Positions 19,937-41,929 are shown, counted from the stretch's first letter. The stretch: DNA of 64,000 nucleotides from Pseudomonadota bacterium (GCA_021323945.1 JAJPKA010000020.1:186001-250000); one strand, 5' to 3'. The notes: generated by a model from the letters alone, not told the origin. Translations and numbers: made by a program.

Positions 19937-22201
19937 TTGCCCGATGCTCGCGCCGCAAAGATAAGTGTGGCGAGCAGGCGACGAACGCCTGGCGTTGTTA
20001 ACTACCTGTCGTGGAGGTTCAAGCGTCTGAACCGGTCCAGGACCCAGAATCACGTGGCTAAGTCGATGAGATGGCGGGGCGGTGCTCTTTTCGCACTAGT
20101 GGTCTACTCGGCGCTCTCACTGATTTACTTTGGTCCATCAAAACCTTCTCAGTTTTGGGAAGAATATCGCGGTCTTGGTGCAGATCCGACCATCCACATG
20201 TGGGCAATGAGCTGGTGGCCCTATGCTTTGGCTCATCATTTGAATCCGCTTCTCACACCGACAATTTTCGCACCCGGTGGTTACAATCTTGCACGCGCGG
20301 TCAGCTTGCCGGCCCCGAGCTTAGTTATTTACCCGATCACGAGACTTTTTGGTCCGGTAGTTGCCTACAATCTCTTATGCATCTTATGCCCAATCGCTGC
20401 CGCACTATCAGCCTTTGTGCTCTGCAGACATATATGTCAGAAGTTTGGACCGGCGCTGTTCGGCGGTTATATTTTTGGTTTTTCGCAATACGTCCTATCT
20501 CAGATTGGCGCGCATCTATTTCTTTTGTTTATCTTCCCCGTGCCGTTGGCAGTCTACCTGGTACTGTTGCGGATTGAAGACAAGCTAACCAGAACTTCAT
20601 TTATTGCTGCATTCAGCGCCGTAATGATCTTCGAGTTCTTATGCTCAACGGAGCTGTTTGCGACTTGTACTCTGTTTGGTCTGGTCATGCTGGCACTGGC
20701 GCTCGTGCTTCTGGCTGAGGACCGCGGCCGAATTATAAAGCTCTCCATCGAGTTGTCAGTTGCCTATACATTGATGATCATATTGTTATCACCATATCTG
20801 TACCAAGTCCTCGTCGATGGGGTACCCCAGGTACTGAATCCTCCGGAAGCATATTCAAATGATGCCTTGGCGTTGCTGGTCCCGACCCCCGTCTTGTTGG
20901 GCGGCAGTCGCTTCGCTTGGTTGAGTTGGCAATTTAGAGACGTCTGGACCGAAATGGCCGGATACATGGGGCCTGGCCTGTGGCTGGTGATTGCCCTGTT
21001 TGCGCGGAAGCATCGGGCGTCGAAGTCTTGCAGTCTTTTGTTGTGGAGTCTGGTTATCATAGGCGTCGCATCGCTCGGTCCGAAACTGCATATTGCGGGA
21101 CGAACAGGCATCTATTTGCCGTGGCTAATCGTAGCCAAGCTGCCGCTCATCAATCTGGCCTTACCGGGTCGCTTCGGGATGTATCTTTTCCTCGTGGCGG
21201 GTGTCATCCTGGCCATTTATCTCGGCGACGGTGAATTAGCTACTTGGCGGGGAGGCTTGATGGCAGCGGCGGCTCTCATCTTCATGATGCCAGATTTGGC
21301 TTTTATTCGAGCCGAGACGACTACGGTACATATCCCCGGCTTTTTTCGTTCGGGAGAATACAAGCGTTACATTGGTCGCGGCGATATAGTTTTGATTCTG
21401 CCCGACACGATAACTTCCACGAGTCAGGTGCTGCTCTGGCAGGCACAGACTGGCTTCTACTTTCGGAATGCCACGGGGTTCTATTTGCCGCCGGAAGACT
21501 ATCAGCGTTGGCCGATCACCGCCAGTTTCGTGGATGCTCACAGGATTCCCGACTTTGTTGAGCAGCTCGACGCTTTTTTGGCCGCACATCAAGTGAAAGC
21601 GATAATTGTGGACGCTAGCGCGCCCAAAGGATGGCCGGCGATGCTATCTGCGGCGGGCCTGATACCGATCGCCACCGGTGGGATCTTTTTCTACAAAGTT
21701 CCAGCTAGCGTGTTGGCATCCTTTGCTCATACCAATGCTCACCAAATGGCCGAGAAGGAGGCCGCAATTTCTTTCGGTGCGCTCGTATATGCCGCCAGCC
21801 AGTATGTGGCGCGGGGACTCCCACTCGGCAAACTAGATCCGGCAGAGACCTATCGGCTGAGACTCTTAACGGCGCTGCAGAGCGACTCACCGCCGCCCGA
21901 GGAGTCGAATTGGTGGGAAAACCTCTGGCTTGGAAGCTGGGGCGGATTGATCGGTGTCGGTATTTCCGGCCACTACGAGGACCTTCAGTTTCTGGTTAAT
22001 GAGTATGGCTCCGAAGCCGCCAAAATCCTTTTCCCCTATCCACATGAGCTAGGCAAACATCCCAGAGTCACGGAAGGACAATTGCTATTCTTATTTACCC
22101 AGAAAGGAATACGGCAGGCAGCACGCAGGACCGCTCCAAGTTTGCCAAGCCGGAGAGCGTTTTCGTTACGGACCCGCGGTTCAGCCGGCCCGTCCGCGTG
22201 A
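19937..22201 (+). CDS. Large multi-pass membrane protein, GT-C-like, second tandem paralog
   Basis: GLGADPTIHMWAMSWWPYALAHHLNPLLTPTIFAPGGYNLARAVSLPAPSLVIYPITRLFGPVVAYNLL aligns to the upstream ORF throughout; start codon uncertain (ATG at about 20068 also possible). Confidence 0.7.
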   Translation: MPDARAAKISVASRRRTPGVVNYLSWRFKRLNRSRTQNHVAKSMRWRGGALFALVVYSALSLIYFGPSKPSQFWEEYRGLGADPTIHMWAMSWWPYALAHHLNPLLTPTIFAPGGYNLARAVSLPAPSLVIYPITRLFGPVVAYNLLCILCPIAAALSAFVLCRHICQKFGPALFGGYIFGFSQYVLSQIGAHLFLLFIFPVPLAVYLVLLRIEDKLTRTSFIAAFSAVMIFEFLCSTELFATCTLFGLVMLALALVLLAEDRGRIIKLSIELSVAYTLMIILLSPYLYQVLVDGVPQVLNPPEAYSNDALALLVPTPVLLGGSRFAWLSWQFRDVWTEMAGYMGPGLWLVIALFARKHRASKSCSLLLWSLVIIGVASLGPKLHIAGRTGIYLPWLIVAKLPLINLALPGRFGMYLFLVAGVILAIYLGDGELATWRGGLMAAAALIFMMPDLAFIRAETTTVHIPGFFRSGEYKRYIGRGDIVLILPDTITSTSQVLLWQAQTGFYFRNATGFYLPPEDYQRWPITASFVDAHRIPDFVEQLDAFLAAHQVKAIIVDASAPKGWPAMLSAAGLIPIATGGIFFYKVPASVLASFAHTNAHQMAEKEAAISFGALVYAASQYVARGLPLGKLDPAETYRLRLLTALQSDSPPPEESNWWENLWLGSWGGLIGVGISGHYEDLQFLVNEYGSEAAKILFPYPHELGKHPRVTEGQLLFLFTQKGIRQAARRTAPSLPSRRAFSLRTRGSAGPSA

Positions 22202-24193: not shown

Positions 24194-25696
24194 ATGGGTG
24201 CAAGTAAAACGCTCTCGTTGTCGGTGCTCGTTCCTGTGTACAACGAGCAGCACCTTGCCGTTGAATGCCTGAACCGGTTGAGGCTGCTGGCGCAGTGCGA
24301 ATTTCTGTCGTCGGTCGAGGTGATCGTCGTGGACGACGGGTCGACCGATCTCACCCCACAGATTCTGGCCGACTACGAGAGATCCCTCCGCGAACCATCG
24401 AGTGATACGGCTGGCCGGCGCATCCGCTGGCTGTTCTGTCGGCATCAAAAGAATCGCGGCAAAGGGGCGGCTGTCCGCACCGCGTTGGAACGGGCATCGG
24501 GCGAGATAACTGTCATTCAGGATGCCGATCTTGAGTATCATCCTCGCGATCTGATCAAGATGCTGACGGTCTTCCTCGAAGAAAACGCGGACGCAGTCTT
24601 CGGTTCGCGCTTCGTCAGCGGTGGTCCACGCCGCGCGCTGCTATTTAGGCATCAGCTCGGAAACAAGTTGCTTACTTTTTTATGTAACTTGATTACCAAT
24701 CTGAATCTAACTGACGTATGGACAGGCTACAAAGCAATCCGCACTGAGCTCTTCAAGTCAATTCCCTTGGTGGCAAACGACTTTCGATTGGAGCCGGAGG
24801 TTACGATCAAACTGGCTAAACGCGAGGCCCGCATCTTTGAGGTGCCTATCAGTTACTTTGGTCGCAGCTACCAGGAGGGGAAGAAAATAGGCTGGCGCGA
24901 TGGGGTGCTTGCGCTTGGGGCAATGCTACGATGCGCCATTAGCGATGATATCTACCAGGCTGACGCGCACGGCAGCCGGATTTTGGCACGTCTGGCGCGC
25001 GCGCCACGCTTTAACGCGTGGATGGCCGACACCATCAGACCGTATTGCGGGGAACGCGTGCTCGAGATCGGTAGTGGGGTTGGCAATCTGACTCGCCGGC
25101 TCATCCCGAGGACCAAATATGTCGCCAGTGATATAAACCCGCTGTACCTCCAGACCCTGGCAAACCTCGAGGTCGATCGACCGTATATGCACACCGCCTA
25201 TTGCGATGTCACGGATTTATCGTCGTTTCCACGCATTGATGCCGAGTATGATACCGTGATTTGCCTGAACGTCATTGAGCACCTGGATGACGATCGTGCT
25301 GCGCTCCTCAATATCAATCGGGTTCTGGCTCCTTCGGGGCGCGCGATTATCCTGGTGCCACAGGGCCCCGGTAACATGGGAACCCTGGACTCAGTGCTGG
25401 GGCATCGACGCCGTTACACCCGCGAGATATTGGTTGAGCTTGCTTCCGAATGCGGGTTCAGCGTCAAAACAATAATCGACTTTAACCGCATAGGCAGCCT
25501 CGCCTGGTTTCTCAACGGCAAGATACTTCGGCGCCGCACCTTTGGTCTCGGTCAAATCTGGATGCTTGACCTTTTGACGCCGCTCTTGCGGCGCATCGAC
25601 CGTTTCTTGCCGTTGCCACCATTAAGCCTCATCGCGATCCTGCAGCGCCGCCCCGAAGTCCAGGTCACAAATACCAACAGTCACCAAGCCGTTTAA
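24194..25696 (+). CDS. Bifunctional GT2 glycosyltransferase-SAM methyltransferase fusion
   Basis: N-terminal LSVLVPVYNEQHLAVECL...VIVVDDGSTDLT and DADLEYHPRDL (polyprenyl-phosphate GT2 type); C-terminal GERVLEIGSGVGNLTRRLIPRTKYVASDINPLYLQ. Confidence 0.92.
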   Translation: MGASKTLSLSVLVPVYNEQHLAVECLNRLRLLAQCEFLSSVEVIVVDDGSTDLTPQILADYERSLREPSSDTAGRRIRWLFCRHQKNRGKGAAVRTALERASGEITVIQDADLEYHPRDLIKMLTVFLEENADAVFGSRFVSGGPRRALLFRHQLGNKLLTFLCNLITNLNLTDVWTGYKAIRTELFKSIPLVANDFRLEPEVTIKLAKREARIFEVPISYFGRSYQEGKKIGWRDGVLALGAMLRCAISDDIYQADAHGSRILARLARAPRFNAWMADTIRPYCGERVLEIGSGVGNLTRRLIPRTKYVASDINPLYLQTLANLEVDRPYMHTAYCDVTDLSSFPRIDAEYDTVICLNVIEHLDDDRAALLNINRVLAPSGRAIILVPQGPGNMGTLDSVLGHRRRYTREILVELASECGFSVKTIIDFNRIGSLAWFLNGKILRRRTFGLGQIWMLDLLTPLLRRIDRFLPLPPLSLIAILQRRPEVQVTNTNSHQAV

Positions 25697-26818: not shown

Positions 26819-27158
26819 TGGCCGCCGCGGCCGTTCGGGCCAGTTCGATAGAGCCGATTTATGGGCGACACTTTATACGTGCTAACCAACGGTAGCTAGG
26901 CCTCTGAGGGACTCGATAATGCAACCCGTATTGGCTGATCTGCGGCAATCGTGACGCTGACAATCAACCATAAAAACGGCTAGAAGCAGATGTAGTCACC
27001 CGCCGTCCACTTGACGACGGTGCTGTTCGATGCTTCCTTTGCCAGCTATCTAGTGACAAGTGGCAGCGAGACGAAAAAAGACGCCGACCGCCAAAAGGCA
27101 TCGCGTGCTGATATAAGTTTGCCCCGACTTGAAGAACCGCTCGCTGCTAGGGAGTCTG

Positions 27159-28421
27159 ATGGACTTTGTTTCATACGCGCAGAATCAAGAAGACGTGATG
27201 CTCTACCGGGCCCTGCGCGACGTAAGGCGCGGCTTTTACATCGATGTGGGCGCACAGGATCCGGTCGTCGATTCGGTCACCAAGGCATTTTACGATCGTG
27301 GCTGGCGTGGCATAAACATTGAGCCCAGCAGCGAGTACTTCCAGCGACTTCAGGCAGAGCGCCCTCACGACATAAATTTGGCTACCGCGGTCGGCAAAGA
27401 AACCGGAGTTATTACGTTCTACGAGGTTCTGCACACCGGTCTGTCGACAACGCGCGCCGGCTATGCCCAACGCCACTCGCTAACCGGCCACGAGGTAACG
27501 GCCCGCGAGGTCCCCTGCACAACCCTGGATCAGATTTGCCAGGAGCACCGCGTGGGCACCGTTCATTTCCTGAAAATCGACGTCGAGGGTTCCGAGCGTG
27601 CTGTGCTTGAGGGATTCTCGTTTACAAGCGTTCGACCATGGCTGGTCGTGGTCGAGGCTACCGAGCCCAATACGGACCGCCAACTTTTTGCGGAATGGGA
27701 AGAACTGCTGATCAACCGGAATTACAGATTTATCTACTTTGACGGATTGAACCGCTTCTACGCAGCGGAAGAGCATGCCGATCTCGCCGGGCACTTTTCG
27801 CACCCCCCAAACGTTTTCGACCAATATGTGAGTTATCAGTTCTGGCAGCTGCGGGAAGAACTGCGCGAATTGCGCACTGCAGAACGGACAGGCCTGATTA
27901 ACTCGCTGAATCACATGCTCGCCGAGGTTCAAAGTCTTCGGGCCGAGGGACAGGCACTGCGGGAGTCTATAGTCGCGCTCAACGAACGTGAGCAGACGCT
28001 CCGCAAGACCATGGCCGAGCGGGAGCAGATGCTGCAGGAAGTGATGGCGCAGCGCGACCGGCAACTTGGCAGCCTCCAGGAGCTGTTGGCGCAGCGCGAC
28101 CGGCAATTGGCGGCCATGCAGGCGAACCTCGCCGCGGCCCAGCGGCGCCTGAAATCCGTCCGGTCGTCGGTCTCGTGGAAGATTACCAGTCCCTTGCGCG
28201 AAATAAGGCGGGGCGCGATGCGAATCTTGCACGCTTTCCATTCAGGCTCCTCTTCTGACTCATCGATTTCACCAATAGCGAACTCGAAGCCGGCAATGCG
28301 CGACGAGGTAGCCTTGGCTCTTACCGAACCGGCCCGACTCGTCTATCAAAATCTGCGTGATGCTGCGGCGATGCACTCGGATCCGGAAAAAGCGGGCACG
28401 GCGACTGAGGAGCGCCTATGA
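27159..28421 (+). CDS. FkbM-family methyltransferase with C-terminal coiled-coil
   Basis: MDFVSYAQNQEDVMLYRAL...FYIDVGAQDPVVDSVTKAFYDRGWRGINIEP and VHFLKIDVEGSERAVLEGF; followed by EREQ/QRDRQL-rich coiled-coil. Confidence 0.9.
   Translation: MDFVSYAQNQEDVMLYRALRDVRRGFYIDVGAQDPVVDSVTKAFYDRGWRGINIEPSSEYFQRLQAERPHDINLATAVGKETGVITFYEVLHTGLSTTRAGYAQRHSLTGHEVTAREVPCTTLDQICQEHRVGTVHFLKIDVEGSERAVLEGFSFTSVRPWLVVVEATEPNTDRQLFAEWEELLINRNYRFIYFDGLNRFYAAEEHADLAGHFSHPPNVFDQYVSYQFWQLREELRELRTAERTGLINSLNHMLAEVQSLRAEGQALRESIVALNEREQTLRKTMAEREQMLQEVMAQRDRQLGSLQELLAQRDRQLAAMQANLAAAQRRLKSVRSSVSWKITSPLREIRRGAMRILHAFHSGSSSDSSISPIANSKPAMRDEVALALTEPARLVYQNLRDAAAMHSDPEKAGTATEERL
28045..28106 (+). repeat. 20-nt perfect direct repeat, 42-nt period, in the coiled-coil region
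   Basis: TGGCGCAGCGCGACCGGCAA at 28045-28064 and 28087-28106, encoding AQRDRQ twice. Confidence 0.9.
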
Positions 28422-31400
28422 GAGTCGTTGCTGAGCTTCAAGTCTTTCCCCTCGCGCCGCAGGCGGCCGACGACCTGGACCGGTACAGCACCGAACTGGT
28501 CGAGGCGATGGTTAGAGAAGCAGGTCATCACGAGGTTCGGGTTTTAATAACTCACTCGTCCGAGGAATTGCTCGAAGAGCTAGAGCAAAAATTTCCTGGG
28601 CTGCTGCATAAGCCAACTTGCCGAGTCTCCCGGATCCCATTTGTGGAACGCTCCCAGAGTGGCAACGATTGGCATCACGACGCGGCACAGCTTATACGCG
28701 AACATGCGCTGGGCCAGGTCGCCCCGGATGTCATCCTGTCAGCGTCTATAATCAAGCGGTCCACCATCCGACTTTTAAACTCACGACTCCGTCACCTCAC
28801 CGTGCCATGTGCGACCATACTCGCCGGTGTTCCTCGCATGGATTGTGTAGGTGCCGCCGAGAGCGCGGCTACGGACGGCCTGCCAACCTCAGGCGATCGC
28901 ACAGGCCAGAGACGACCGTGGCAATCTGAACTGGTGCTGACGGATTCGGAGTCTCACAAACAGGAACTGCTGAACGCGCTCGGTCTCGCGCCCGAACAGG
29001 TTTTAGTTGTTCCACCGGGACTGGACGTGTATTCGTCGAAAGCTTCGTCGGATGAACAACTTCGGGTGGTTCACCGATACAGGTTGATGCCGCAGGGCTT
29101 TGTCCTGACCATCTTTCGTGGTTCGGCGGGTGGTCTTGAGCAGTTGCTGGAGGCATACAGCACTATTCCTCGCGAATTAAGGCGGATCCATCGCTTGGTC
29201 GTGATACTTGGAGTCGAGCGCGACGAAGGATGGTTACGCCACGTTGCCGATTCGTACGGAGTCGACGACGAGATGGTTGTGGTGGCAGACCCGACTGGGG
29301 ATGAAATAGTTGCGCTATGCGAAAGCTGCAAAGTTTTGGTTCTGACCAATTGTGATCCTTTGCCCGCACAGGAAGCGCTATCCGCGATGGCTGCTGGAGT
29401 GCCAGTGCTCGGGCCCGAGCTGCCGCCCGTCAAGGAGTTGTTGGGAAATAGCGCCGCACTTTTCGAATCAGGTTGTCCAGCACTTCTTGGCCGGCGGCTT
29501 CTGGAGTCGCTGTCAGACGCCGAACCGTTTCAGAGTTGGTCTGTGGCCGCGGTTGAGCAGGCGAGGCGGTTTAGTTGGAGGGAGAGTGCCCGGCTGAGCT
29601 TTGAAGCTTTGGAAAAGCTTTGTTCTTCAAAGCCGAAGAAGCCGAATCAGCACACTTCAGCACAGAAGCGTCTGCGCCTGGCATATGTGTCACCGTTGCC
29701 GCCAGAACGCTCTGGCATCGCGGACTACAGTGCGGAGCTGCTTCCTGAACTCGCCAGACACTACGATATCGACCTGATTACCGATCTTGCCCGGATTGCG
29801 GATCCTGTTCTAGAGCGAGAGTTTCGGCGCGTTTCGCTTAAGGATTTCGAAAGAATCGCCCGCAGTTACGATCGAATCCTCTACCATATAGGCAACTCTC
29901 CATTTCACGTTCAAATACCGTCCTTGCTCGAGCGATTTCCTGGGACGGTTGTTCTGCATGACTTTTTTCTCAGTCACCTATTTAACTGTCTGCAGGCTAC
30001 CGACGGCGTGTCGCTTTGGCGCAATCTCTATCTTTCTCACGGTTACCCAGCCCTGATTGCCGGTGCGCAAAAGGATGCGATGGCAGCAGTCTGGGCCTAT
30101 CCCTGTAATCTCGCTGTGCTTTGTAATGCGGCAGGCATCGTGGTCCATTCGCAGCATGCGAGAGAACTCGCGCGACAGTGGTTCGGCATTTCGGGTGAAG
30201 ATTGGCACGTAATTCCTCAGCTGAGAAAAGTCCCGCAAAGTACGACTCGGGCCAAAGCGCGAAAGCAGCTCGGCATCTCCCCCGAAACGTTTCTTGTCTG
30301 TTCATTTGGGTTTTTGTCCGAGGCCAAGCTCAATGATTTGCTATTTTGGAGTTGGCTCGGCTCAAGCTTGTCACGCCGGCCGGACTGTATTTTGGTCTTC
30401 GTTGGCGGGGATGGCACTGGAAAACCTTACCAGGCCAATGGTTTGCCCGCAGCGCAGGTTCGGTCGACCGGATATGTGACCAAAGCCGAATATGAACTGT
30501 ATCTCGCGGCTGCAGATGTCGGCGTTCAGCTGCGAAGCGAACTATCACGCGGCGAGACGCCCCGATCTGTGCTCGACTGCATGGCGTATGGCGTGGCTAC
30601 GATAGTAAGCACTCATCCGGCACTCGTCGACCTGCCGGACGATTCCGTTTTGAGAATTTCGGAGAAAGGTCGTCAGGAGGAACTGATTGCTGCGCTCGAG
30701 AAACTTTATCGCGAACCCGGATTGCGCGCCGAGCTTGGCAAGCGAGCGCGGCAGTACATAAGCGTGAGGCGCCGCCCGGCGCTTATCGCGGAACATTACG
30801 TTAAAGCAATAGAAGACTCGGCGAACAATCATCCGGTGAGTCTTACCAACCGGATCATACTGGATGCCGCGAAGCTGGTTCCGACAGGGACGACCCCGGC
30901 GCAGGAGTTGGCAACCATCGCTTCTTGTCTTGCAGAGAACAGCAGCGTCGTCACTACCCCACAGCTGCTGGTTGATGTCACGATACTGGTTATGGTGGGA
31001 GATTATCGGACAGGCATCCAACGCGTTACCCGGGGAATCCTCAAGTATCTGCTGGAAAACCCTCCCGCGGGATGGCGTATTGAACCGGTTTTTAGGCGTC
31101 ATCGCGAAACCTATCGTTACGCACGAACTTTTGTGGGCAAATATTTGGGCCTGGACTCTTTCAATCCGGAAGATGCTCCGGTCGCGGTCCGTCCTGGGGA
31201 TATCTTTCTGGGCCTGGATTGGGACGCGGGCATCGCCATCGACGAGCGAGCCGAGCATTGGCTGCTGCATAACAGACAGCGTGGGATGAGAACCGTTTTC
31301 ACCATCTATGATCTGCTTCCCTTGCAGCACCCGGAATGGTTTAAGCCTGACATGCCATCGGTCTTTCACGGCTGGTTGTCTCAGTTATGCCGTCTGGCAG

Positions 31401-32236
31401 ACGGGTTCGCTTGTATCTCACGTTCTGTCGCCGATGAACTGATGCAGTGGCTCGACGAGTATTCTGCGCTTGCTCCCAGGCCTTTGGATGTCGGTTATTT
31501 TAAACTCGGTAGCGACATAGAGGCGAGCTGGGCCAGTCAAGGGTTAAGCTCCGAGGACGAGAAACTTCTGCAGACGCTTAAAGATCGCGAAGTATTCCTG
31601 ATGGTTGGGACTGTTGAGCCTCGCAAGGGTCACAGTCAGGCTCTATCCGCGCTGGAGAGATTGTGGGAGTCCGGCGAGGACGCCGCCTTGGTAATTTGCG
31701 GCCACGAGGGCTGGATGGTCGACGCCCTCGCCCGACGGCTGCGCAGTCATACCGAACTGGGCCGTCGGCTGTTCTGGCTCGAGCAGGCATCCGATGAAGT
31801 GCTGCTCCGATTGTACACAAGTGCATCGGCGCTGCTCATGGCTTCCGAGGGTGAAGGCTTTGGATTGCCTTTAGCGGAAGCTGCACGCCACGGCCTCCCA
31901 ATCATTGCGCGTGACTTGGCCGTATTCAGAGAAGTAGCTGGCGAACATGCCTTTTACTTCTCCGGTACCGACTCCATGCAACTGGCTATGGCGCTTCGCC
32001 GCTGGCTCGAGTTGTATCGGCGTCGCGAACATCCGAAGCCTGCTCCCCCAGCAACCTGGCGAGAGAGCGCCCAAGAGCTGTTGCATATCGTGCTCGACGG
32101 AAACGCTTACAAGCGTTGGCCGGGCAAAAACCGGTTGGCGCACGGGCGCGTTCCAGGCTCTCACCTGGAGTTCGTCCCGGACAGTAGTCGAAGCGATGGC
32201 GTCGATGAGGGCCCAGTGGTTCACAGCCCGGCATGA
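28418..32236 (+). CDS. Three-domain GT-B (GT4-type) glycosyltransferase, 1272 aa
   Basis: ATGA overlap with the FkbM gene. Three successive GT-B units: about aa 1-420; about 430-830 starting LRLAYVSPLPPERSGIADYSAELLPEL; about 860-1250 with GTVEPRKGHSQAL and SEGEGFGLPLAEAARHGLP. Confidence 0.9.
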   Translation: MRVVAELQVFPLAPQAADDLDRYSTELVEAMVREAGHHEVRVLITHSSEELLEELEQKFPGLLHKPTCRVSRIPFVERSQSGNDWHHDAAQLIREHALGQVAPDVILSASIIKRSTIRLLNSRLRHLTVPCATILAGVPRMDCVGAAESAATDGLPTSGDRTGQRRPWQSELVLTDSESHKQELLNALGLAPEQVLVVPPGLDVYSSKASSDEQLRVVHRYRLMPQGFVLTIFRGSAGGLEQLLEAYSTIPRELRRIHRLVVILGVERDEGWLRHVADSYGVDDEMVVVADPTGDEIVALCESCKVLVLTNCDPLPAQEALSAMAAGVPVLGPELPPVKELLGNSAALFESGCPALLGRRLLESLSDAEPFQSWSVAAVEQARRFSWRESARLSFEALEKLCSSKPKKPNQHTSAQKRLRLAYVSPLPPERSGIADYSAELLPELARHYDIDLITDLARIADPVLEREFRRVSLKDFERIARSYDRILYHIGNSPFHVQIPSLLERFPGTVVLHDFFLSHLFNCLQATDGVSLWRNLYLSHGYPALIAGAQKDAMAAVWAYPCNLAVLCNAAGIVVHSQHARELARQWFGISGEDWHVIPQLRKVPQSTTRAKARKQLGISPETFLVCSFGFLSEAKLNDLLFWSWLGSSLSRRPDCILVFVGGDGTGKPYQANGLPAAQVRSTGYVTKAEYELYLAAADVGVQLRSELSRGETPRSVLDCMAYGVATIVSTHPALVDLPDDSVLRISEKGRQEELIAALEKLYREPGLRAELGKRARQYISVRRRPALIAEHYVKAIEDSANNHPVSLTNRIILDAAKLVPTGTTPAQELATIASCLAENSSVVTTPQLLVDVTILVMVGDYRTGIQRVTRGILKYLLENPPAGWRIEPVFRRHRETYRYARTFVGKYLGLDSFNPEDAPVAVRPGDIFLGLDWDAGIAIDERAEHWLLHNRQRGMRTVFTIYDLLPLQHPEWFKPDMPSVFHGWLSQLCRLADGFACISRSVADELMQWLDEYSALAPRPLDVGYFKLGSDIEASWASQGLSSEDEKLLQTLKDREVFLMVGTVEPRKGHSQALSALERLWESGEDAALVICGHEGWMVDALARRLRSHTELGRRLFWLEQASDEVLLRLYTSASALLMASEGEGFGLPLAEAARHGLPIIARDLAVFREVAGEHAFYFSGTDSMQLAMALRRWLELYRRREHPKPAPPATWRESAQELLHIVLDGNAYKRWPGKNRLAHGRVPGSHLEFVPDSSRSDGVDEGPVVHSPA

Positions 32237-32257
32237 CAAGTTGTCTACTTCGCTGAG

Positions 32258-34612
32258 TTGCGAGGCCGTTTGGTGTTTCCCGGTCTTCCAGTCGAATCGC
32301 CCGGAGCAGGGCGTGCCGCCCGGGTGTGCATCGCGACCTACGAGATTCTCGGACCATCCCAGAATGGTGGTATTGGTACCGCCTATCACTCGCTCGCCAG
32401 CGCCTTAGCCGCTGCTGACCATCAGGTGACCATTCTGTATCTTTGGGCGTCACGCTCGGGGCCGGGCGAAATGCGCCACTGGCAGGAGCATTTCCGCTCG
32501 TTGAACATTGCGTTTGTCCCCTTGCCGGCATCGCCAAGCATAAGCGGCATACCCGAATGTATGCAGATCGCGCGTGACGCTTATGCCTGGCTGCGACGGC
32601 AGCAATTCGATGTCATTCATTTTCCCGAGCTGCACGGCTATGCCTACTACTGCGTGTTGGCTAAGCATCAGGGTCTCGATTTTCCCAATACAATTCTGTG
32701 CGTGGGTACCCATAGTCCGATTTCCTGGATCCGACAACAGAACAGGGAGCTTCCCTACAGCGCTGAGGAATTGGAGATGGATTTTATGGAACGCCAATCC
32801 GTCGCGCTGGCCGATGTAGTCGTGAGTCCTAGCCAGTATATGTTGACCTGGATGCGAGCGCGCGGATGGGCTTTACCTGCCAGGTGCTACGTGCAGCAAA
32901 ATGTCGTGGCTCGTGACCTGATGCGCATGGCAAATCTGCGGCATCACGATCGAACCGGACTGCAGCGGGCGCGAGATCTGGTCTTTTTTGGCAGGCTGGA
33001 AGCACGCAAGGGAATCGCCCTGTTTTGCGATTCACTTGATCTTTTGACGAACGCCGGGCTGTCGGATTTCACGGTTACTTTTTTAGGAAGGAACGGTCGC
33101 GTAGCAGGCCAAGATGCCGTAAGCTTGGTTCGAGCGAGAGCACGGAGATGGCCGTTCCCTTATCGCATTTTGACCGATTATGGGCGTGATGCGGCGCTGC
33201 GATTCCTCGCCGAAGACCCCGGTCGTGTCGCCGTAATCCCCTCGCTCGAGGATAATTTACCCAGTACCGTGATGGAATGCCTGGTAGCGGGCATTCCGTT
33301 CCTGGCTGCGAGGACCGGCGGCATTCCTGAGCTCATCGCCAGCGGTGATCTTGCTATGACCACGTTCCGTCCCGAGGCCGACGAGCTGGCTGAGCGTCTC
33401 GCTCTCGCGATCCAAAGAGGAGTTCCTGTCGCCCAACCTGCTATCGATGTCGAGCTGAACAGACGGCAATGGGTAGAATGGCACGCCGCCCTGGCCTCAC
33501 AGTGCGCTAATGCAAGGCCGACAACTCAACTGGGTCGTGCTGGGGCTGCAGAACCGCTGGTGACGATTTGCTTGAACGGCCGGAACTCAGAGTTGCTACG
33601 CCCAAGCCTCGAGTCATTATGCCGGCAGACTTATCCGCGATTGGAACTTTTGCTCTCGGATTCGGTAGCCAGTGCAGGTGACTCTGGTCTGCGGTCGCCG
33701 ATACTTGATTTCGAGCGCAAGGGCGGGCGGGTGGAAAAGCTTTCAGGGCGAGCGCCGAGCCGCGCGGCCAGTGGCGACTATGTGCTTTTCTTTGAGGCTC
33801 CCGATTATCTGACTCCGGAGGCCCTGGCTACTTTTGTGCGAGTGGCGAATCACACGAACTCTGAGGTTTTGACCTGCTTTGTGAATCTTTGGAAAGGTTC
33901 ACAACCGACTTGCCAAGACGCGGCGGTCGGCCAATATCCGTTTCTCGGCTCCGCGATCGTTTCCAGCGTGTTTCGGAATCATTTCGGAGGTTGGTTCGTC
34001 TTTGTGAAGCGAGAAGTGCTCGCGCGTGTTGGTGACTTTCCGAGCAACGTTGGACGAGACTGTGCCGATTGGCAGTTCTTGTCACGTGCCGCTCTCATGA
34101 ACTGTCGGATCGAGGTAATACCGGTAGCGCTAGGTTGGCATTGGGTCCGCGAGTCGGACGGTGGTCAAGTGGTCGACGCCCTGGAACAACTGGAGGCAAT
34201 AAAGCCGTATGTAGGGGAGATGCCATCGCTCTTGCAAGGCTTGCCAGCAGCGGCACTGACGATTGGGGCGCTCTACCAGACACTGTTACGTCGCTTTGCT
34301 GAAAGTCCGGCGCGCCAACTCCTTTATCGTCTCTCGCTCGCCCGCGCAAGTCGTGAAGGTGATTGGAATAGCTTAGACGAGGGCGCATTGATTTGGGCGA
34401 TAAACCAAATGCCGAAAAGGGCCCGGGTAAAACTGGCTTCGCTGTTCAACGGATGGCTAGAGTATTCGGCCGCTCGGTCCGAACTCTCGCCATTCGCTTG
34501 GCGGCGCGCCTGGCAAATCGCGCGCCAATTGGCCCGTGGCCATTATCATCGGTATGGTCACGGCTTCGGCACCGCACTGCGGGACCTGCGTGGACGTTCT
34601 CGTGCAAGATGA
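32258..34612 (+). CDS. GT4 glycosyltransferase fused to a GT2-like (GT-A) domain
   Basis: VCIATYEILGPSQNGGIGTAYHSLASALA, VFFGRLEARKGIALF, SLEDNLPSTVMECLVAGIPFLAARTGGIPELI; C-terminal VTICLNGRNSELLRPSLESLCRQTYPRLELLLSD. Start (TTG) uncertain. Confidence 0.85.
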   Translation: MRGRLVFPGLPVESPGAGRAARVCIATYEILGPSQNGGIGTAYHSLASALAAADHQVTILYLWASRSGPGEMRHWQEHFRSLNIAFVPLPASPSISGIPECMQIARDAYAWLRRQQFDVIHFPELHGYAYYCVLAKHQGLDFPNTILCVGTHSPISWIRQQNRELPYSAEELEMDFMERQSVALADVVVSPSQYMLTWMRARGWALPARCYVQQNVVARDLMRMANLRHHDRTGLQRARDLVFFGRLEARKGIALFCDSLDLLTNAGLSDFTVTFLGRNGRVAGQDAVSLVRARARRWPFPYRILTDYGRDAALRFLAEDPGRVAVIPSLEDNLPSTVMECLVAGIPFLAARTGGIPELIASGDLAMTTFRPEADELAERLALAIQRGVPVAQPAIDVELNRRQWVEWHAALASQCANARPTTQLGRAGAAEPLVTICLNGRNSELLRPSLESLCRQTYPRLELLLSDSVASAGDSGLRSPILDFERKGGRVEKLSGRAPSRAASGDYVLFFEAPDYLTPEALATFVRVANHTNSEVLTCFVNLWKGSQPTCQDAAVGQYPFLGSAIVSSVFRNHFGGWFVFVKREVLARVGDFPSNVGRDCADWQFLSRAALMNCRIEVIPVALGWHWVRESDGGQVVDALEQLEAIKPYVGEMPSLLQGLPAAALTIGALYQTLLRRFAESPARQLLYRLSLARASREGDWNSLDEGALIWAINQMPKRARVKLASLFNGWLEYSAARSELSPFAWRRAWQIARQLARGHYHRYGHGFGTALRDLRGRSRAR

Positions 34613-34624
34613 GGTCGACAAGAA

Positions 34625-35374
34625 GTGATTCTGTCCGAGCGGTTCAAATTCATTTTTATCAAAGGCAAACGGGTGGGTGGGACCAGTGTCGAGATGGCGC
34701 TTTCCACGGTTTGCGGTCCTGATGACATCGTCACGCCGATCGCGCCGATCGACGAGCTCGAGCGGATGCGGCTAGGTGGCGCTGCGCGCAACTATGCGGC
34801 CAGCCGCGCATCCGAATTGGCCTACGCCAACCTTATCCGGGTCACGCCGATACACGCGCTCGCTCAAGTGACGGTGCCCAAGGAGCGCTTTTACAATCAC
34901 ATGTCTTTGCGCGAGGTGATCGAAGAGTATGGCCGTTCGGTCGAGAACTTCGAGGTAGTGTGCGTGGAACGATCGCCTTTTGCCAAAATATTATCCTGGG
35001 CGAATTGGCTCGCAAGCTCGGAAAGCTACCTATCAGGCGGCAGCTTACAGCGCGATCTGGCCACGCTGCGGTCTTCGATCGACAGAATTTTTGAGACCGG
35101 TGAGTTTACCGAGGTCAGGAATATCGACTTGTATCGCAATCGTGAGGGGGAGGTGAAAGCGCGCGTGTTGCGTCACGAAAAGCTGGAAGACGATTTGCGC
35201 GTCTTCCTGAATTCGCGAGGCGTCACGAAAATGCCCGTCCTGCCCCAAGCCAAAGCAGGTCTCAAATCTGAACGTCTGGATCCGCGAAAATTCTTTTCGA
35301 AACGTCAGCTTTGCATCATTAGCGAGGTCTTCGCCGAGGAGTTCGATACTTTCGGCTATTCGCCTTTGTGCTGA
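34625..35374 (+). CDS. Sulfotransferase-fold protein (Sulfotransfer_2-like)
   Basis: FKFIFIKGKRVGGTSVEMAL corresponds to the PSB loop and VCVERSPFAKILSWANW to the 3'-phosphate-binding region; 12 nt after the GT gene. Confidence 0.65.
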   Translation: MILSERFKFIFIKGKRVGGTSVEMALSTVCGPDDIVTPIAPIDELERMRLGGAARNYAASRASELAYANLIRVTPIHALAQVTVPKERFYNHMSLREVIEEYGRSVENFEVVCVERSPFAKILSWANWLASSESYLSGGSLQRDLATLRSSIDRIFETGEFTEVRNIDLYRNREGEVKARVLRHEKLEDDLRVFLNSRGVTKMPVLPQAKAGLKSERLDPRKFFSKRQLCIISEVFAEEFDTFGYSPLC

Positions 35375-35521: not shown

Positions 35522-36268
35522 CTACGGATCGGAAAGTTCTTGCCATCGCCGCAACGCACGAGCCCGGGTCAGCCAGTAAGGCGGAACAGAGTAATGCATC
35601 ACGTCAAACAGGCGCCGATGGCGCCGGTAAATTTTCCGCGCATCCGTATAGACAATTAACTCCCGCCAGAGGCCAGGCCGCCCCTGCCATCCGTGCTTAT
35701 TCGGCAGGTTTTGAAAAAATGCAAGGTTGAATCGATCGACCGCGCCATTTTCGTCCTCGGCTGCCGGATCGAATTGACGTGCGACATTTAATAGCGTCTC
35801 ACGGGGCCGCTCGACTAACTGTTCGTAACGCAACTTTAGAGCTCCGGGATCATGCCACCATTGATAGGAAATGCTCAGAACGTTTTCTGCCCCCCAACTC
35901 ATCGCGTACTGCAAAAACGCTTCAGAAGTCGGAGGTTGGCCGGCGAGGTTTGGTGGAATCTCGGCATTGCCTTCCAGCCAACGGGCGGTCAGCGGTTCAA
36001 ACCGAATAAAGTTGAGGATCGAAACCAACACGTCGAGGGGATGCCGTGCCAGGACGATCGTTCTAAAACCGTGGTCGCGCAGAAAGCGCTGGAAGCCTGG
36101 TTCCCGATACCAATGCAGCTGCACGATTGCACGGTCCGGGACCGATTGCAGCTCTCGATAGTCGTGTACCGCGAACTGTTGAAGCTTCAAAATATCGCCC
36201 AATACCGAACGAACCCAGGTATTACCGCAGCGGGGAGTGCTGATAACGGCCACCCGAAGGCGCTTCAT
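35522..36268 (-). CDS. Sulfotransferase domain protein
   Basis: MKRLRVAVISTPRCGNTWVRSVL and TIVLARHPLDVLVSILNFIRFE; start chosen at MKRLRV. Confidence 0.85.
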   Translation of the reverse strand: MKRLRVAVISTPRCGNTWVRSVLGDILKLQQFAVHDYRELQSVPDRAIVQLHWYREPGFQRFLRDHGFRTIVLARHPLDVLVSILNFIRFEPLTARWLEGNAEIPPNLAGQPPTSEAFLQYAMSWGAENVLSISYQWWHDPGALKLRYEQLVERPRETLLNVARQFDPAAEDENGAVDRFNLAFFQNLPNKHGWQGRPGLWRELIVYTDARKIYRRHRRLFDVMHYSVPPYWLTRARALRRWQELSDP

Positions 36269-36314
36269 CGAAACAACCGAGCCTGGTCGAGCTTTAGTCC
36301 GCGACGAGTCCCGA

Positions 36315-38756
36315 TTAGTAATAGCGGGTTGGAAGAACTGCCATCCGTGTGGGAAAAGGCATGCCGATAAATGGGGTTTTGCCGAAGGAGCCGATGCCAC
36401 CAAGGCTTAGTTGAAATAGAAACTGGGTCTCGCTGGGATTCACTGTATTGGTGATACCCATGTCCAAAGCCCAGCAATTGCACGTTGGTTTGAGCCGCAG
36501 ACCGTATTCCGTCGACAACAGCTGGTGTGTCGCAAGGTTGTACGAGGGTGCAAACAAGACCCCGACCCGATTAAACAATTCGTAATAAGCGCGTGCTGTC
36601 AGAAACTGATTGAATCCCGCGTTGACACCCGGCTTGGACTCGGGGCCCGGCCCGATGTAAGTATACGCTAGCTGAAGAGCGGCGTTCGTGGAGATCTTGC
36701 TCTTGCGCATCCAGTTCGGCCGCTGTACGCCTAAATAGGCGCTGGCGTAATGAATTGACGCGACCTGTGGCGAATAGTCGAGCTGGCCGCCGACAGCGAG
36801 GGTGCGAGACGGGAAAGCTGACGCGTTGAATTCGAGGTCAGAAAGCCTGGAACCGCTCCCTTGTGCGATCGCATGAGTCGTGTCGAAAGCCTGCATGACC
36901 GTCAACTGTAAGATTTCTTCGACCGGCGAACCGTTAACAAAGCTGCGCGCCATGAACGGATGGGCAACAAATTCGCTCTGCTCTTCAGCGCTTTCCTGGC
37001 TCTCTCCAGGTTGCACCTGACTAGGCGTCAATTTCAGGAAGATTCGGGACGTCAAACCATAAGTTATCAGGCTCCTGCCCTCGACTCGGTCAATTTCGTC
37101 GAACAAGGGCAGCGAACCTTGATCGTAATTCGGCACGTACGTGTAATTTATAAATGGCTCGATGGTGTGTTTGATCTTTTCGACCGGGTGCGATTTGAGA
37201 TTGTAAATCCGCTCGAGCTCTGAGGCGATGCCGAAACTGCCGTAAATCATTTCCCGTGATTGAAATCCACCTGGTGCGAGCGGTCCGAGCTTCAGCCCGT
37301 TGTTATACTTCCGCCCGTCTTCTCCTACAGGAATGATATCGATCTCATGTCCTGACGTGTCGTACATCGTTTCGCGCAAGCCCAAGGTGCCATAGCCGTA
37401 CAGATAATCGCCCCATCGCCAAGGAAGTGTGATTCGCGGATTCAAGTCGAGTCGCAATCCAGATTGACCTTGGCGGCGATAGAACTCATCAGCGGTCACG
37501 TCGTAGTCGGCATAGAGCAGGCCGCCGAGCAAATCCTTGCGTCCGCTCGCTAGAAACTGCGGCAGGGTCTGCAGTGCAAAAGGTTGGTACTGAATGAGAT
37601 CCTGGTTGTAGATCCCGCCAAACTGCAAGTAGCCGTTCTGGTAAGTATCGAGGAGTCCGAAATCCGAGATTGCATTGCGCATCAGGTAGAACTGATTGGG
37701 GTAAAAAATCCCGGACGCAGCCCTCGTCGAGAGGGTCCAGAGGTTGAGCTCACGCAGTAACAACGGGTCGCTTACCGTAATCGTGTCGGCGTAGGCTACC
37801 AGGTCGTTGGTGATATGTTGCCGCAGCATACCAAAGAAATCATAGCGGTCGACCGGAATGAACGGGTTCGCGATCTGATTGTCAATTATATCGTCCTCAC
37901 GGTTCTGTGAGCTGCGAAGACTTTCATTGAAGAAGCCACCGTCGACAATGAAATAATTGTCAGGTCCTGTAACCAACCGATACTCGGCCAGGCCGCCGAC
38001 GCGCTGAGAGGTTTCAAGGTCGAGAGCGAAGGTCGCGTCCGAACTACGGTCGATTGCCCAATAGTACGGCTGCACCAACTGGAATCCACGCAATCCGGAT
38101 TCGCCGACCCGCGGCGTTAGAAAGCCCGAGTGGCGGTCACTATCAGCCGGAAAAACCGCGTAGGGCGAGTATAAGACCGGATGGCCAAGAACATTGAAGT
38201 GAACGTTGTGCGCCGTGGCTGAATCCCCCATCTTTATGTCCATCTGGTCGGCCGAGATACTCCAATCCGGCGTTCCGGGCTCTGCCCCGCACGTGGTGAA
38301 TTCGCCGTTTTGTACTGTGTAATGCTGTCCTGTTGTCTTTTTGATGCGGGCTCCTTTGATCCGATAGGTCTTGTTGAAATTGGTGATGGAGGCGTCGGTC
38401 AGCTCAGCGGTCTCTTGAGGTAGATTCAGATAAGCTTCGCTCGCTCTGGTTTCCGTGAGTGGGTCGACGAGATGAACGTTCCCCCGCGCATGAAGTTTAC
38501 GCTGCCCGCGAGCGAGATCGATCTCGTCAGCGGTCAGGATACTCGCCTGCTGAGTTACGGTGGCGTTGCCGGTGACGATGAAGGTGTTGGTCTTGTAATC
38601 GTAGACAAAATTGCGCCCGGTAACCTGTAATGGCGCTTGATGCTCCTTGTGGACCAACGAGGAGAGGGTCTGCGCCAACGCCTCACGACACACGAGCGCC
38701 ATGCTCGCAATCGATAACCGCAACAGGCTTCGTGTTATGACGCGTCGGTTCAGCAA
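36315..38756 (-). CDS. lptD: LPS-assembly outer membrane protein LptD
   Basis: OstA-type N-domain (FVYDYKTNTFIVTGNATVTQQASILTADEIDL), ARIKKTTGQHYTVQNGEFTTCGAEPGTPDWSISADQMDI, SDRHSGFLTPRVGESGLRGFQLVQPYYWAI; beta-rich C-terminus. Confidence 0.93.
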   Translation of the reverse strand: MLNRRVITRSLLRLSIASMALVCREALAQTLSSLVHKEHQAPLQVTGRNFVYDYKTNTFIVTGNATVTQQASILTADEIDLARGQRKLHARGNVHLVDPLTETRASEAYLNLPQETAELTDASITNFNKTYRIKGARIKKTTGQHYTVQNGEFTTCGAEPGTPDWSISADQMDIKMGDSATAHNVHFNVLGHPVLYSPYAVFPADSDRHSGFLTPRVGESGLRGFQLVQPYYWAIDRSSDATFALDLETSQRVGGLAEYRLVTGPDNYFIVDGGFFNESLRSSQNREDDIIDNQIANPFIPVDRYDFFGMLRQHITNDLVAYADTITVSDPLLLRELNLWTLSTRAASGIFYPNQFYLMRNAISDFGLLDTYQNGYLQFGGIYNQDLIQYQPFALQTLPQFLASGRKDLLGGLLYADYDVTADEFYRRQGQSGLRLDLNPRITLPWRWGDYLYGYGTLGLRETMYDTSGHEIDIIPVGEDGRKYNNGLKLGPLAPGGFQSREMIYGSFGIASELERIYNLKSHPVEKIKHTIEPFINYTYVPNYDQGSLPLFDEIDRVEGRSLITYGLTSRIFLKLTPSQVQPGESQESAEEQSEFVAHPFMARSFVNGSPVEEILQLTVMQAFDTTHAIAQGSGSRLSDLEFNASAFPSRTLAVGGQLDYSPQVASIHYASAYLGVQRPNWMRKSKISTNAALQLAYTYIGPGPESKPGVNAGFNQFLTARAYYELFNRVGVLFAPSYNLATHQLLSTEYGLRLKPTCNCWALDMGITNTVNPSETQFLFQLSLGGIGSFGKTPFIGMPFPTRMAVLPTRYY

Positions 38757-39002: not shown

Positions 39003-40724
39003 TCAGGAGCTGCTGGCGTGTCTCTCCCCAGGCAAGCCCGAACCGATGCTGAGTAACAACATTCGACGATGGCCCGACGTCTCGTGCGAAACCGAGACGA
39101 CAGAAGTTGCTAAAGAACGGTTGAACCTTCGCAATTGCGTGAGCTGATCGCTCCAAGCGAGTAGATATTCAGGACGATCCACTCGGTTTCCTCCTTGGAA
39201 ATCCTTTGGAATGGGTGGAATACCGCGTCCGAAATAATAAGAGACCTCGTAATTGGGGAGGCCGACAATCATGACAGGGTGATTGGCGACGATCCGCCGT
39301 GCGCCGAGTACAAAAACCTTGAGCGTACGCTGCCTCGCCAGGGCAGGTGTAAGAAGGCCAATCCACAGGCTAATCGCCGCGAGCTGGGCGAGGGCGACCG
39401 ATATAGCAGCCGATTGAGCTTTGTGCCTGAGCGCAAAGTGTAACCCCACGAGCGATGCACCTACAATAAGCAGCGTCGTCACGCCGATTCTTCCATAATG
39501 ATCCGCCGCTGAAAGGAGTGCTGCATATGCGGCCGCGTTCGAGTGCAACTTCGCAGGCAGTTCGGGAAAGACCAGGGCTTCACCGTATGCGCCGAGGCCT
39601 GCGATCCCCAACCCCAGAAGCAGCAAGCTCGCAATAAGATTTGCAATACGGATCAACTGCCCGGAACCGGCTGCCGAGGCGGAAGAAACCAGACCGCCGA
39701 GGACCGTCGCGAATGACGGAAGCGCCACTAATATGTAGTCGTCACGCTTCGAGTTGGCCAATGAGAAAAAGGTAAGCGAGCCAACGACTAGTGCCGACTG
39801 ATAGAGAATCATATCCCCCCACTTGCGGCCTTGGAGAATCCTGGGAAACGCAGTGATGAGATAAATATTCAGAGGCAGCGTTGAACCTATGAACCGCAGC
39901 CAAATGTAATAAATCGGACGCGCAGCCTCGCCCGTTCCCCCCAGGCGAGCGGGCAGGAAATGACCCAGATTTTCTTCGAGCAACTGGATTCGCAACAATG
40001 CTGGCGCTCGAAGGAATGCTGGAATATACCAGCTACCTGCCAGCGTAGCGGCGATCAGGAGGATTAACCAACTTTGCCGGTTATTCACTGCCCGGAGCGG
40101 GCGCTGCCCTCTTGCACCAAAATAGATAAGGAGACCAACAAGACAAAGAACCAGCGCTAGCGGTCCCTTTGTCAGAATGCCTAATCCCAGTAAAACTCCG
40201 ACCAGAACCGCCCGCCAGGTCGATTGTTCGCATCTCGCCAGCGGGTAAAAGAGCGAATAGGCCGTGAACACCAAAAAGGTGAACAACATATCAGTGCGGG
40301 CAAACGCCGCCCGCGAGGCAAAGCCATAGGAGCCGAGTAAGAATAGATACGCCAGACAACCGGAGAGGAGGCCGAAAGAGGCCCTCGCAAATTCCATTAC
40401 CACGGTCGCCAATGCTGCCGCCGCTAGCAAGGAAACGGAGCGAGCGCCCGCCTCGTCGACTCGGCGGCCGCGGGCTCGCGCGATGATAGCGGCGAGCCAA
40501 TAAAAAAGCGGTGGCTTTCTGCTCAGCTGACCTTGGAGATCAACCGGAACCAGCCAGCGGCCACTCTTGACGATCTCAAGGACAATCCCCGCAGGCTCTG
40601 CCTCTTCATCGTTGTGAAAGGGCGCGGTTATTCCCTGTCCAAGGAACAACAGGGCGAGGATAAAGGCCAAGACTATGCGGAAGGCTTGCCGGGTCATGCC
40701 GCCGTTGCGAACTATCCATACCAA
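39003..40724 (-). CDS. ArnT-like GT39 membrane glycosyltransferase
   Basis: FHNDEEAEPAGIVLEIVKSGRWLVPVDLQGQLSRKPPLFYWLAAIIARARG and GLGILTKGPLALVL are ArnT/PMT motifs; ATG at about 40697 also possible. Confidence 0.87.
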   Translation of the reverse strand: MVWIVRNGGMTRQAFRIVLAFILALLFLGQGITAPFHNDEEAEPAGIVLEIVKSGRWLVPVDLQGQLSRKPPLFYWLAAIIARARGRRVDEAGARSVSLLAAAALATVVMEFARASFGLLSGCLAYLFLLGSYGFASRAAFARTDMLFTFLVFTAYSLFYPLARCEQSTWRAVLVGVLLGLGILTKGPLALVLCLVGLLIYFGARGQRPLRAVNNRQSWLILLIAATLAGSWYIPAFLRAPALLRIQLLEENLGHFLPARLGGTGEAARPIYYIWLRFIGSTLPLNIYLITAFPRILQGRKWGDMILYQSALVVGSLTFFSLANSKRDDYILVALPSFATVLGGLVSSASAAGSGQLIRIANLIASLLLLGLGIAGLGAYGEALVFPELPAKLHSNAAAYAALLSAADHYGRIGVTTLLIVGASLVGLHFALRHKAQSAAISVALAQLAAISLWIGLLTPALARQRTLKVFVLGARRIVANHPVMIVGLPNYEVSYYFGRGIPPIPKDFQGGNRVDRPEYLLAWSDQLTQLRRFNRSLATSVVSVSHETSGHRRMLLLSIGSGLPGERHASSS

Positions 40725-41656
40725 GGAGGGGCTGAAGCTAACTGCCAGGAACGCCGCAATTCTGGAAATTTTTTGCCCAGGAGCCGTTCGAGGGCATCAA
40801 GGTCGGGATCATATATCGATCGAAGCCAGTCCCGCGCTTTGTCATCGATTGGTGGCTTCGGGACAGCCTTGACGAAATAGCGCTGGTAGATCAGTCGCTT
40901 GATCGTATGATTGCTGCCAAGACTGATCGGAACCAGCAGTTGGCCGACAAATCGCACCCAGTTCGCCCCGGCCATTCGTCTGGCCCAAGGCCAGCGCGCG
41001 ATGGCAAAGCCATTTTCGACAAAACAGGTATCGATTTGATGAAGCGGCTCAGTGCTCAATTCCAGGAATTGCAGCACGGTTGCCACCACTGACTTGCCAT
41101 TCGAAGCCGACCTGGTCAGTTCATCAAACATCAATATCAGCACCCGGTCGGCACCAAATAGCTCCAGGTAACGTTGCACCTGTGCGGCATAGAGGCCAAG
41201 TTCGACATACAGCTGCGAAACGCTCCAGCCCTTTTTGTCTCGATTCCAATCCCTACGCACCGCTTCATAAAAGGGCAGATCCTGGAGCCCTTCACGCACG
41301 TCCATTAGGTAGTGGGAGTAGGCGCGCTCGATAGGATCGCGAAGTAAAATAATAATTTTAGCCTGTGGCACTGCTTTTTGAATTCGAGCAGGTGCATTGG
41401 CTTCCCACAGATAAGATGGACTGGCTTCGCCGATCGCCTTGTAGTCTTTAGCGTGGCTAAAAAGTTTGAGATATTGCCCCCGATCGCGGATGATGGTTCT
41501 TAAATAACGTTGCTCGCGAGAAGGAGTAATCTGAGCGAAGTAATGGGGCTCCTTTAGAGCCGGCATAAAGACGTCGGGGTGTTGCTTGAGATAACTATAT
41601 AAGGATGTCGTGCCGCAGTTCTGAGCTCCGACGATGAAGAAGTTGGGCCACGTCAT
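40712..41656 (-). CDS. Sulfotransferase family protein
   Basis: MTWPNFFIVGAQNCGTTSLYSYLKQHPDVFMPALKEPHYF, IILLRDPIERAYSHYLMDVREG; paralog of 273-1172. ORF overlaps the ArnT-like ORF. Confidence 0.92.
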   Translation of the reverse strand: MTWPNFFIVGAQNCGTTSLYSYLKQHPDVFMPALKEPHYFAQITPSREQRYLRTIIRDRGQYLKLFSHAKDYKAIGEASPSYLWEANAPARIQKAVPQAKIIILLRDPIERAYSHYLMDVREGLQDLPFYEAVRRDWNRDKKGWSVSQLYVELGLYAAQVQRYLELFGADRVLILMFDELTRSASNGKSVVATVLQFLELSTEPLHQIDTCFVENGFAIARWPWARRMAGANWVRFVGQLLVPISLGSNHTIKRLIYQRYFVKAVPKPPIDDKARDWLRSIYDPDLDALERLLGKKFPELRRSWQLASAPPWYG

Positions 41657-41929
41657 TGGACAGCTCCATCCACTTGGCAAACAAGCCGATTGAAGCAGCG
41701 GATGGCAAGGATGCACGCGAACAAGTTCATGTCTCGGACCTGATGAGGTGCGAAGGCCAACAGCGCGGCGAAACCCAGGTCGATTGATCTGAACCGTTGC
41801 AAGTGCCCTTTTCGACTCTTACGGTTATCATCTGCGCGCTAACCCAGTCGTCCGCCCTAGGACAAGATTACCCCGGCATATCATGAGATTCGGCAGGACT
41901 GTCTCCTTCAAAGACCGCAGCTGGCCGAT

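Follow-up and report, generated by a model that had tools for sequence, protein, structure and literature searches.

A candidate WbdD/WbdA-like glycan synthase operon with an FkbM methyltransferase as the proposed terminating head in a Pseudomonadota bacterium

The stretch of DNA analysed here (64,000 nucleotides (nt) of a Pseudomonadota bacterium from soil, GCA_021323945.1 JAJPKA010000020.1:186001-250000; hereafter ‘the window’, with positions counted from its first letter) contains, at positions 27,159 to 35,374, an operon of four genes encoding an FkbM methyltransferase with a long coiled-coil, a protein with three GT-B-type glycosyltransferase (GT) units, a GT4-GT2 protein and a sulfotransferase-like protein. 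We propose, with a probability of roughly 0.6, that the operon encodes a WbdD/WbdA-type system of glycan polymerase and terminator in which the FkbM methyltransferase is the terminating head. Its product would most likely be a methyl-capped, probably sulfated glycan, for whose export no Wzm/Wzt pair was found in the genome. In the O9a system that serves as the comparison, the C-terminal region of WbdD recruits the polymerase WbdA, WbdD caps the chain and Wzt reads the cap (PMC3482155); a coiled-coil is described as a characteristic marker of this strategy (PMC11231755).

Results

As an earlier note on this DNA had described, the four genes are co-directional (all on the + strand) and almost without gaps. 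The FkbM gene (27159-28421, with an ATG start and an alternative TTG start at 27129) overlaps the triple GT gene (28418-32236, 1272 aa) by 4 nt (ATGA), and gaps of 21 nt and 12 nt precede the third (784 aa) and fourth (249 aa) genes, respectively. Since both flanking genes are oppositely oriented (upstream, a peptidase A4 gene that is divergent; downstream, a sulfotransferase gene that is convergent), the operon consists of these four genes; a scan for promoters and terminators gave nothing above chance. In the sole same-genus relative (hereafter ‘the sister genome’), the four genes and their flanks are arranged identically (identities of 70, 61, 57 and 69%), and the neighbourhood that the note had singled out for a conservation check is intact in both genomes. 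In genome searches run family by family, a similarly close FkbM protein was found in no other genome of the family. With a strict cut-off, the triple GT had no match among the few members of the family that the phylum sample contained, and the viral contigs searched gave no relatives. The FkbM family is broad and takes its name from a small-molecule biosynthesis enzyme, and the methyltransferase could in principle be a chance neighbour of the GTs that acts on a small molecule or a protein. This is very unlikely, however, given the 4-nt overlap, the order kept in the sister genome and the repeated pairing of FkbM with multi-domain GTs in distant bacteria described below.

Table 1. Features of the operon, with coordinates in the window
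Feature	Position	Strand	Evidence
Methyltransferase head of the FkbM family (residues 1-221), putative chain terminator	27159..27821	+	PF05050, E=2.8e-33
Long helix/coiled-coil, residues 222-338 (117 residues), proposed ruler	27822..28172	+	Structure model; equal length in sister genome
SWKITSPLR anchor with the short C-terminal tail that follows (residues 339-420) and stop codon	28173..28421	+	Tail-profile match at 331-360
Triple GT unit 1, homolog of WbdA N-terminal half, catalytically degenerate	28418..29632	+	23.5% identity to WbdA 19-407, 1.5e-20
Triple GT unit 2, without counterpart in O9-type WbdA, probably active	29660..30817	+	dN 0.19; SRGET family motif
Triple GT unit 3, homolog of WbdA C-terminal half, probably active	30965..32125	+	40.9% identity to WbdA 441-828, 5e-91
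Gene 3: GT4 domain (~32300-33472) and degenerate GT2-like domain (~33545-34207)	32258..34612	+	Pfam; DXD-like site; dN
Gene 4: sulfotransferase-like protein	34625..35374	+	Full-length similarity to annotated sulfotransferases

Pfam confirms the domains of the first three genes and finds three Glycos_transf_1 stretches in the 1272-aa protein. The first and third of these units match the N- and C-terminal halves of WbdA, respectively (Table 1), and unit 2 has no significant match to WbdA. The motifs EPRKG and EGEGFGLP are intact in unit 3, and unit 2 keeps SRGET, its family's variant motif; judged by these sequences, both units are probably active. Divergence was compared between the window's genome and the sister genome only, and as nonsynonymous substitution (dN) only, because synonymous sites were saturated. 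On this measure unit 2 (73% identity, dN 0.19) and unit 3 (76%, dN 0.16) are well conserved, and no part of the operon is better conserved than the FkbM head (82%, dN 0.12).

The first protein is indeed a methyltransferase with a long C-terminal coiled-coil, as the note had it. Its sole Pfam match is PF05050 (residues 29-191), and Pfam finds in it no kinase domain of the kind carried by WbdD of the O9a type and lacking from the O8 type. A structure model (AlphaFold) places a single helix over residues 219-362, with block-mean predicted local distance difference test (pLDDT) scores of 87-96 across residues 261-330; the remaining model is poor, as is that of the fourth protein, the models of the FkbM head and gene 4 having rested on two sequences. 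The stretch from head to anchor measures 117 residues in the window and in the sister genome alike, despite internal indels, and 48 to 123 residues in the other FkbM proteins measured. A search of the coiled-coil DNA for tandem repeats gave nothing worth noting. In G339 (L067:12287-13584), a frame change within a repeated 14-residue coiled-coil unit interrupts an FkbM-coiled-coil gene, through either an assembly error or a variation of the ruler.

FkbM also adjoins multi-domain GTs in plasmid records. The order in Azospirillum brasilense and Marivivens is ATP-binding cassette (ABC) permease, ABC ATPase with Wzt_C (1e-37 and 1.5e-32), FkbM and multi-GT; Peteryoungia and two Rhizobium plasmids have this wzm-wzt-FkbM-multiGT order too, as judged by similarity to the Azospirillum proteins, and so do two genomes of the same phylum as the window (G261 and G341); the order thus recurs in several Alphaproteobacteria and in the window's own phylum. 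The O9 locus is arranged correspondingly, as wzm-wzt-wbdD-wbdA, which was found in an Enterobacter plasmid. In three genomes (G155, G160 and G214), the gene that follows wzt and precedes the triple or double GT encodes not FkbM but a methyltransferase-coiled-coil protein of the Methyltransf_11 type, the head class of WbdD. The FkbM and WbdD-type proteins of these relatives both end in an SWxTxPLR anchor followed by a mostly basic tail. A profile of the FkbM tails finds the WbdD-type tails at 1e-21 to 1e-13 and WbdD itself at 1.3e-5, with 0.09 as the best of 1000 shuffles; the WbdD-type tail of G155 alone, searched against 72,556 plasmids, gave 15 matches, all enterobacterial; most of them carry the annotation methyltransferase, one is called WbdD and the others are not annotated. 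Within 20 loci the anchor is present in 10 of 385 open reading frames, each directly before a multi-GT; a similar motif in one non-slot protein of a Rhizobium plasmid means that it is not exclusive. As judged from the profile matches, the C-terminal tails of FkbM and WbdD-type proteins are homologous in the relatives, and this homology together with that of the polymerase takes the likeness to WbdD/WbdA beyond analogy at the family level.

The exchange of heads in one slot bears on whether FkbM could be an ordinary tailoring methyltransferase for internal or side-chain sugars, with a coiled-coil that only docks on the polymerase and has no part in termination. FkbM proteins without the anchor are found near other GTs (e.g. 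in Jannaschia), and a literature search, made largely outside the subscription journals, found no biochemistry tying FkbM to chain ends. We nevertheless regard tailoring as improbable, because in the relatives FkbM replaces a WbdD-type terminator, in the same slot and with the same tail, beside a Wzt with a domain that reads the chain end. A wider proposition is more tentative, and we would put it somewhat below even odds: that proteins of the FkbM-coiled-coil type form another class of chain terminators, widespread and distinct from WbdD, with the catalytic head swapped on a shared WbdD-type ruler and recruitment tail. In this genus the module would have been uncoupled from Wzm/Wzt and would now act together with a sulfotransferase and some other exporter.

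Several observations weigh against a WbdD/WbdA-like function of the operon in this genus. The RKN and EX7E motifs of unit 1 are lost in the window and in the sister genome (in six relatives, RKN is kept in all six and EX7E in five, G160 having one substitution), and unit 1 is only 40% identical between the two genomes (dN 0.61), a divergence three to four times that of units 2 and 3. Without the catalytic motifs of unit 1, the triple polymerase has at most two active units here; of the note's three GT-B polymerase units, the three domains are therefore present and the activity of the first is not supported. In the third protein, the GT2 domain (45% identity, dN 0.50, compared with 68% and 0.23 for the GT4 domain) has EAPD as its DXD-like site and looks degenerate, decaying like unit 1. 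The tail of the FkbM protein comprises 82 residues with a net charge of +1, compared with 103-132 residues and +5 to +20 in the relatives, and the similarity of its C-terminal end motif to their tails is not significant. In WbdD this region serves both polymerase recruitment and membrane association, and in the FkbM relatives the likeness to WbdD extends along the whole tail. A leave-out profile made from the tails of the relatives and WbdD matches it at residues 331-360 only (1e-5). With the match so confined and the tail short and barely basic, the WbdD-like tail is only partly present in the genus. A simple test for heptad or hydrophobic periodicity of the helix did not exceed shuffles; WbdD failed it too, and the test is uninformative. 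Finally, the papers searched describe no methyl-capped glycan for this organism.

The exporter adds to these points. Wzt_C is absent from the window's genome (G000; 3.74 Mb in 22 contigs) and from the sister genome (G001), and present in 20 of 41 genomes of the family; the four ABC-2 permeases of the genome sit in other contexts and none is Wzm-like. The lack of Wzm/Wzt reported for the window hence holds genome-wide, in that neither Wzt_C nor a Wzm-like pair is found in a genome that is 95.5% complete. The ABC protein encoded upstream of the operon at 15691-17559 was rejected as exporter of the glycan: its score with the MsbA model is 576 bits (cut-off 602), so that it is most likely MsbA, with lipid A export as its likelier role. 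A DrrAB-like ABC-2 pair on contig C22, beside a paralog of gene 3, remains no more than a candidate. About 39 kb downstream on the same contig as the operon begins an exopolysaccharide locus with Wza, Wzc, a sulfotransferase, a sugar-phosphate transferase, a Wzy_C protein and Wzx. The lost motifs of unit 1, the short FkbM tail, the missing Wzt_C and the decaying GT2 domain together characterise the operon, at the sequence level, as a derived form. What the note called a WbdD-WbdA-like machine is partly supported: the WbdD slot, the WbdA homology and the tail common to the relatives speak for it, and a short, nearly uncharged tail and the absence of Wzt_C speak against it.

These features make a repurposed, non-polymeric function a serious rival for this genus. 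A former polymerase-terminator module of the Wzm/Wzt type would have lost its exporter and unit 1 and would now make an oligosaccharide of short, defined length that carries methyl and sulfate groups (such as that of the lipopolysaccharide (LPS) outer core, a glycolipid or a protein glycan), and the coiled-coil of FkbM would be a scaffold and not a ruler. Dead or decaying GT domains, a shortened tail and the lack of Wzt_C in both genomes of the genus fit such a history, and LptD, MsbA and many single-sugar GTs and sulfotransferases lie nearby. The strong constraint on the FkbM head and on units 2 and 3 and the exactly kept length of the coiled-coil, however, fit a working polymerase-terminator pair, and we consider repurposing rather unlikely. 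We thus retain the polymerase-terminator synthase as the preferred reading.

Pfam assigns Glyco_transf_4 and, weakly, a GT2 domain to the third gene. A paralog of it (GT4-GT2, 716 aa; G000:C22 ~259-265 kb, L028:17036-19998, L029:2-2805) adjoins the DrrAB-like ABC-2 transporter and a pair of sulfotransferase-like genes, which together may form another glycan module. That the fourth gene is of sulfotransferase type, as proposed in the note, is supported by full-length similarity to annotated sulfotransferases, there being no meaningful Pfam match even at E=10: it shares 25% identity across 98% of its length with S. meliloti ‘sulfotransferase family 2’ proteins (E=4e-4). Uncharacterised relatives, one of which adjoins cysD/cysC, are found at E down to 6e-22, and none in phages. 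By inspection, the protein has a candidate P-loop motif (FIKGKRVGGTS) and a candidate 3'-phosphate-binding motif (RSPFAKILS), and it may use 3'-phosphoadenosine 5'-phosphosulfate (PAPS); the genome carries one adenosine 5'-phosphosulfate (APS) kinase.

The genome is sulfation-rich, with four further sulfotransferases in the window (273-1172, 35522-36403, 40712-41716 and 50703-51647) and more at C8 ~265 kb and C22 ~263 kb. In relatives, Sulfotransfer_2-Wzt_C fusions directly follow the triple GT in wzm-wzt operons (L059:13759-15462, L060:13443-15143 and L062:11182-12828), an arrangement which suggests that sulfation is guided to the chain end. Gene 4 was considered as a relative of these fusion proteins and ruled out, similarity being undetectable. 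Elsewhere, three related proteins of ~750 aa, possibly membrane glycosyltransferases, are encoded at window positions 17684-19933 and 19937-22201 and at L032:1430-3622; the window pair is without any Pfam match, and the sister genome encodes two homologs upstream of its copy of the operon. The gene at 24194-25696 encodes a GT2 domain like those of polyprenyl-phosphate sugar synthases, fused to an S-adenosylmethionine (SAM) methyltransferase domain, and is 84% identical in the sister genome.

Discussion

We infer the capping of the glycan end, the action of the helix as a ruler, the site of sulfation and export by another transporter from the likeness of the operon to characterised systems. In the mechanism that we envisage, the WbdA-type protein would polymerise a glycan on a lipid carrier with units 2 and 3 active and unit 1 as a non-catalytic fold, and the GT4 half of the third protein would add a primer, adaptor or branch sugar. 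The helix of ~117 residues would keep the FkbM head away from the polymerase; once the chain is long enough, the head would O-methylate its non-reducing end and growth would stop. By analogy with WbdD, chain-end methylation in this genus would thus take place at a distance set by the helix. The fourth protein would transfer sulfate from PAPS.

Among known systems, WbdD-WbdA of E. coli O9a and K. pneumoniae O3 resembles the one described here in the wzm-wzt-terminator-polymerase order (seen in the relatives), in the match of units 1 and 3 to the halves of WbdA, and in an N-terminal methyltransferase, a coiled-coil and an SWxT anchor near the C-terminal end. The window differs in having an FkbM head instead of a Methyltransf_11-type head with a kinase, an extra middle GT unit, a seemingly dead unit 1, a short tail, a genome without Wzt_C and a sulfotransferase in the operon. 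E. coli O8 and K. pneumoniae O5 share a kinase-less methyltransferase terminator and a polymerase of three GT modules, according to the descriptions in PMC11231755 and PMC3482155; the window has a head of the FkbM family and only two active-looking modules, the O8 WbdA having been compared by description only. The A. brasilense, Marivivens, Peteryoungia and Rhizobium plasmid loci likewise combine an anchored FkbM-coiled-coil protein with a following WbdA-like multi-GT but, unlike the window, have Wzm/Wzt (with Wzt_C confirmed in two) and longer basic tails, and the aligned Azospirillum multi-GT has the unit 1 motifs intact. In the same phylum, G155, G160 and G261 unite terminator, triple GT and sulfotransferase in one operon, although their sulfotransferase carries Wzt_C and has no detectable similarity to gene 4.

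That FkbM may have a role in chain length is already in print: with reference to work on O. cytisi (Sigida et al. 2020), FkbM is stated to control O-polysaccharide length in a study of Ochrobactrum quorumnocens (PMC10888714). FkbM lies in the O-antigen cluster there, and the authors' proposal cites cluster content and the LPS gel profile; the likeness to our operon is by description only. Apart from this, our literature search found no paper that joins FkbM with Wzt, a coiled-coil or chain length, nor did it find the slot exchange, the common tail or the decayed form in this genus.

If the proposal is correct, chain-capping rulers would be modular, one tail and polymerase accepting different catalytic heads, and the SWxTxPLR tail would provide a sequence handle by which terminators could be recognised in loci without annotation. 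This genus, with its copy of the module, would then probe the export of a capped polymer without the carbohydrate-binding domain of Wzt, which is the cap reader in O9a. The operon also gives an insight into how surface glycans are made in a group represented here by metagenome-assembled genomes only.

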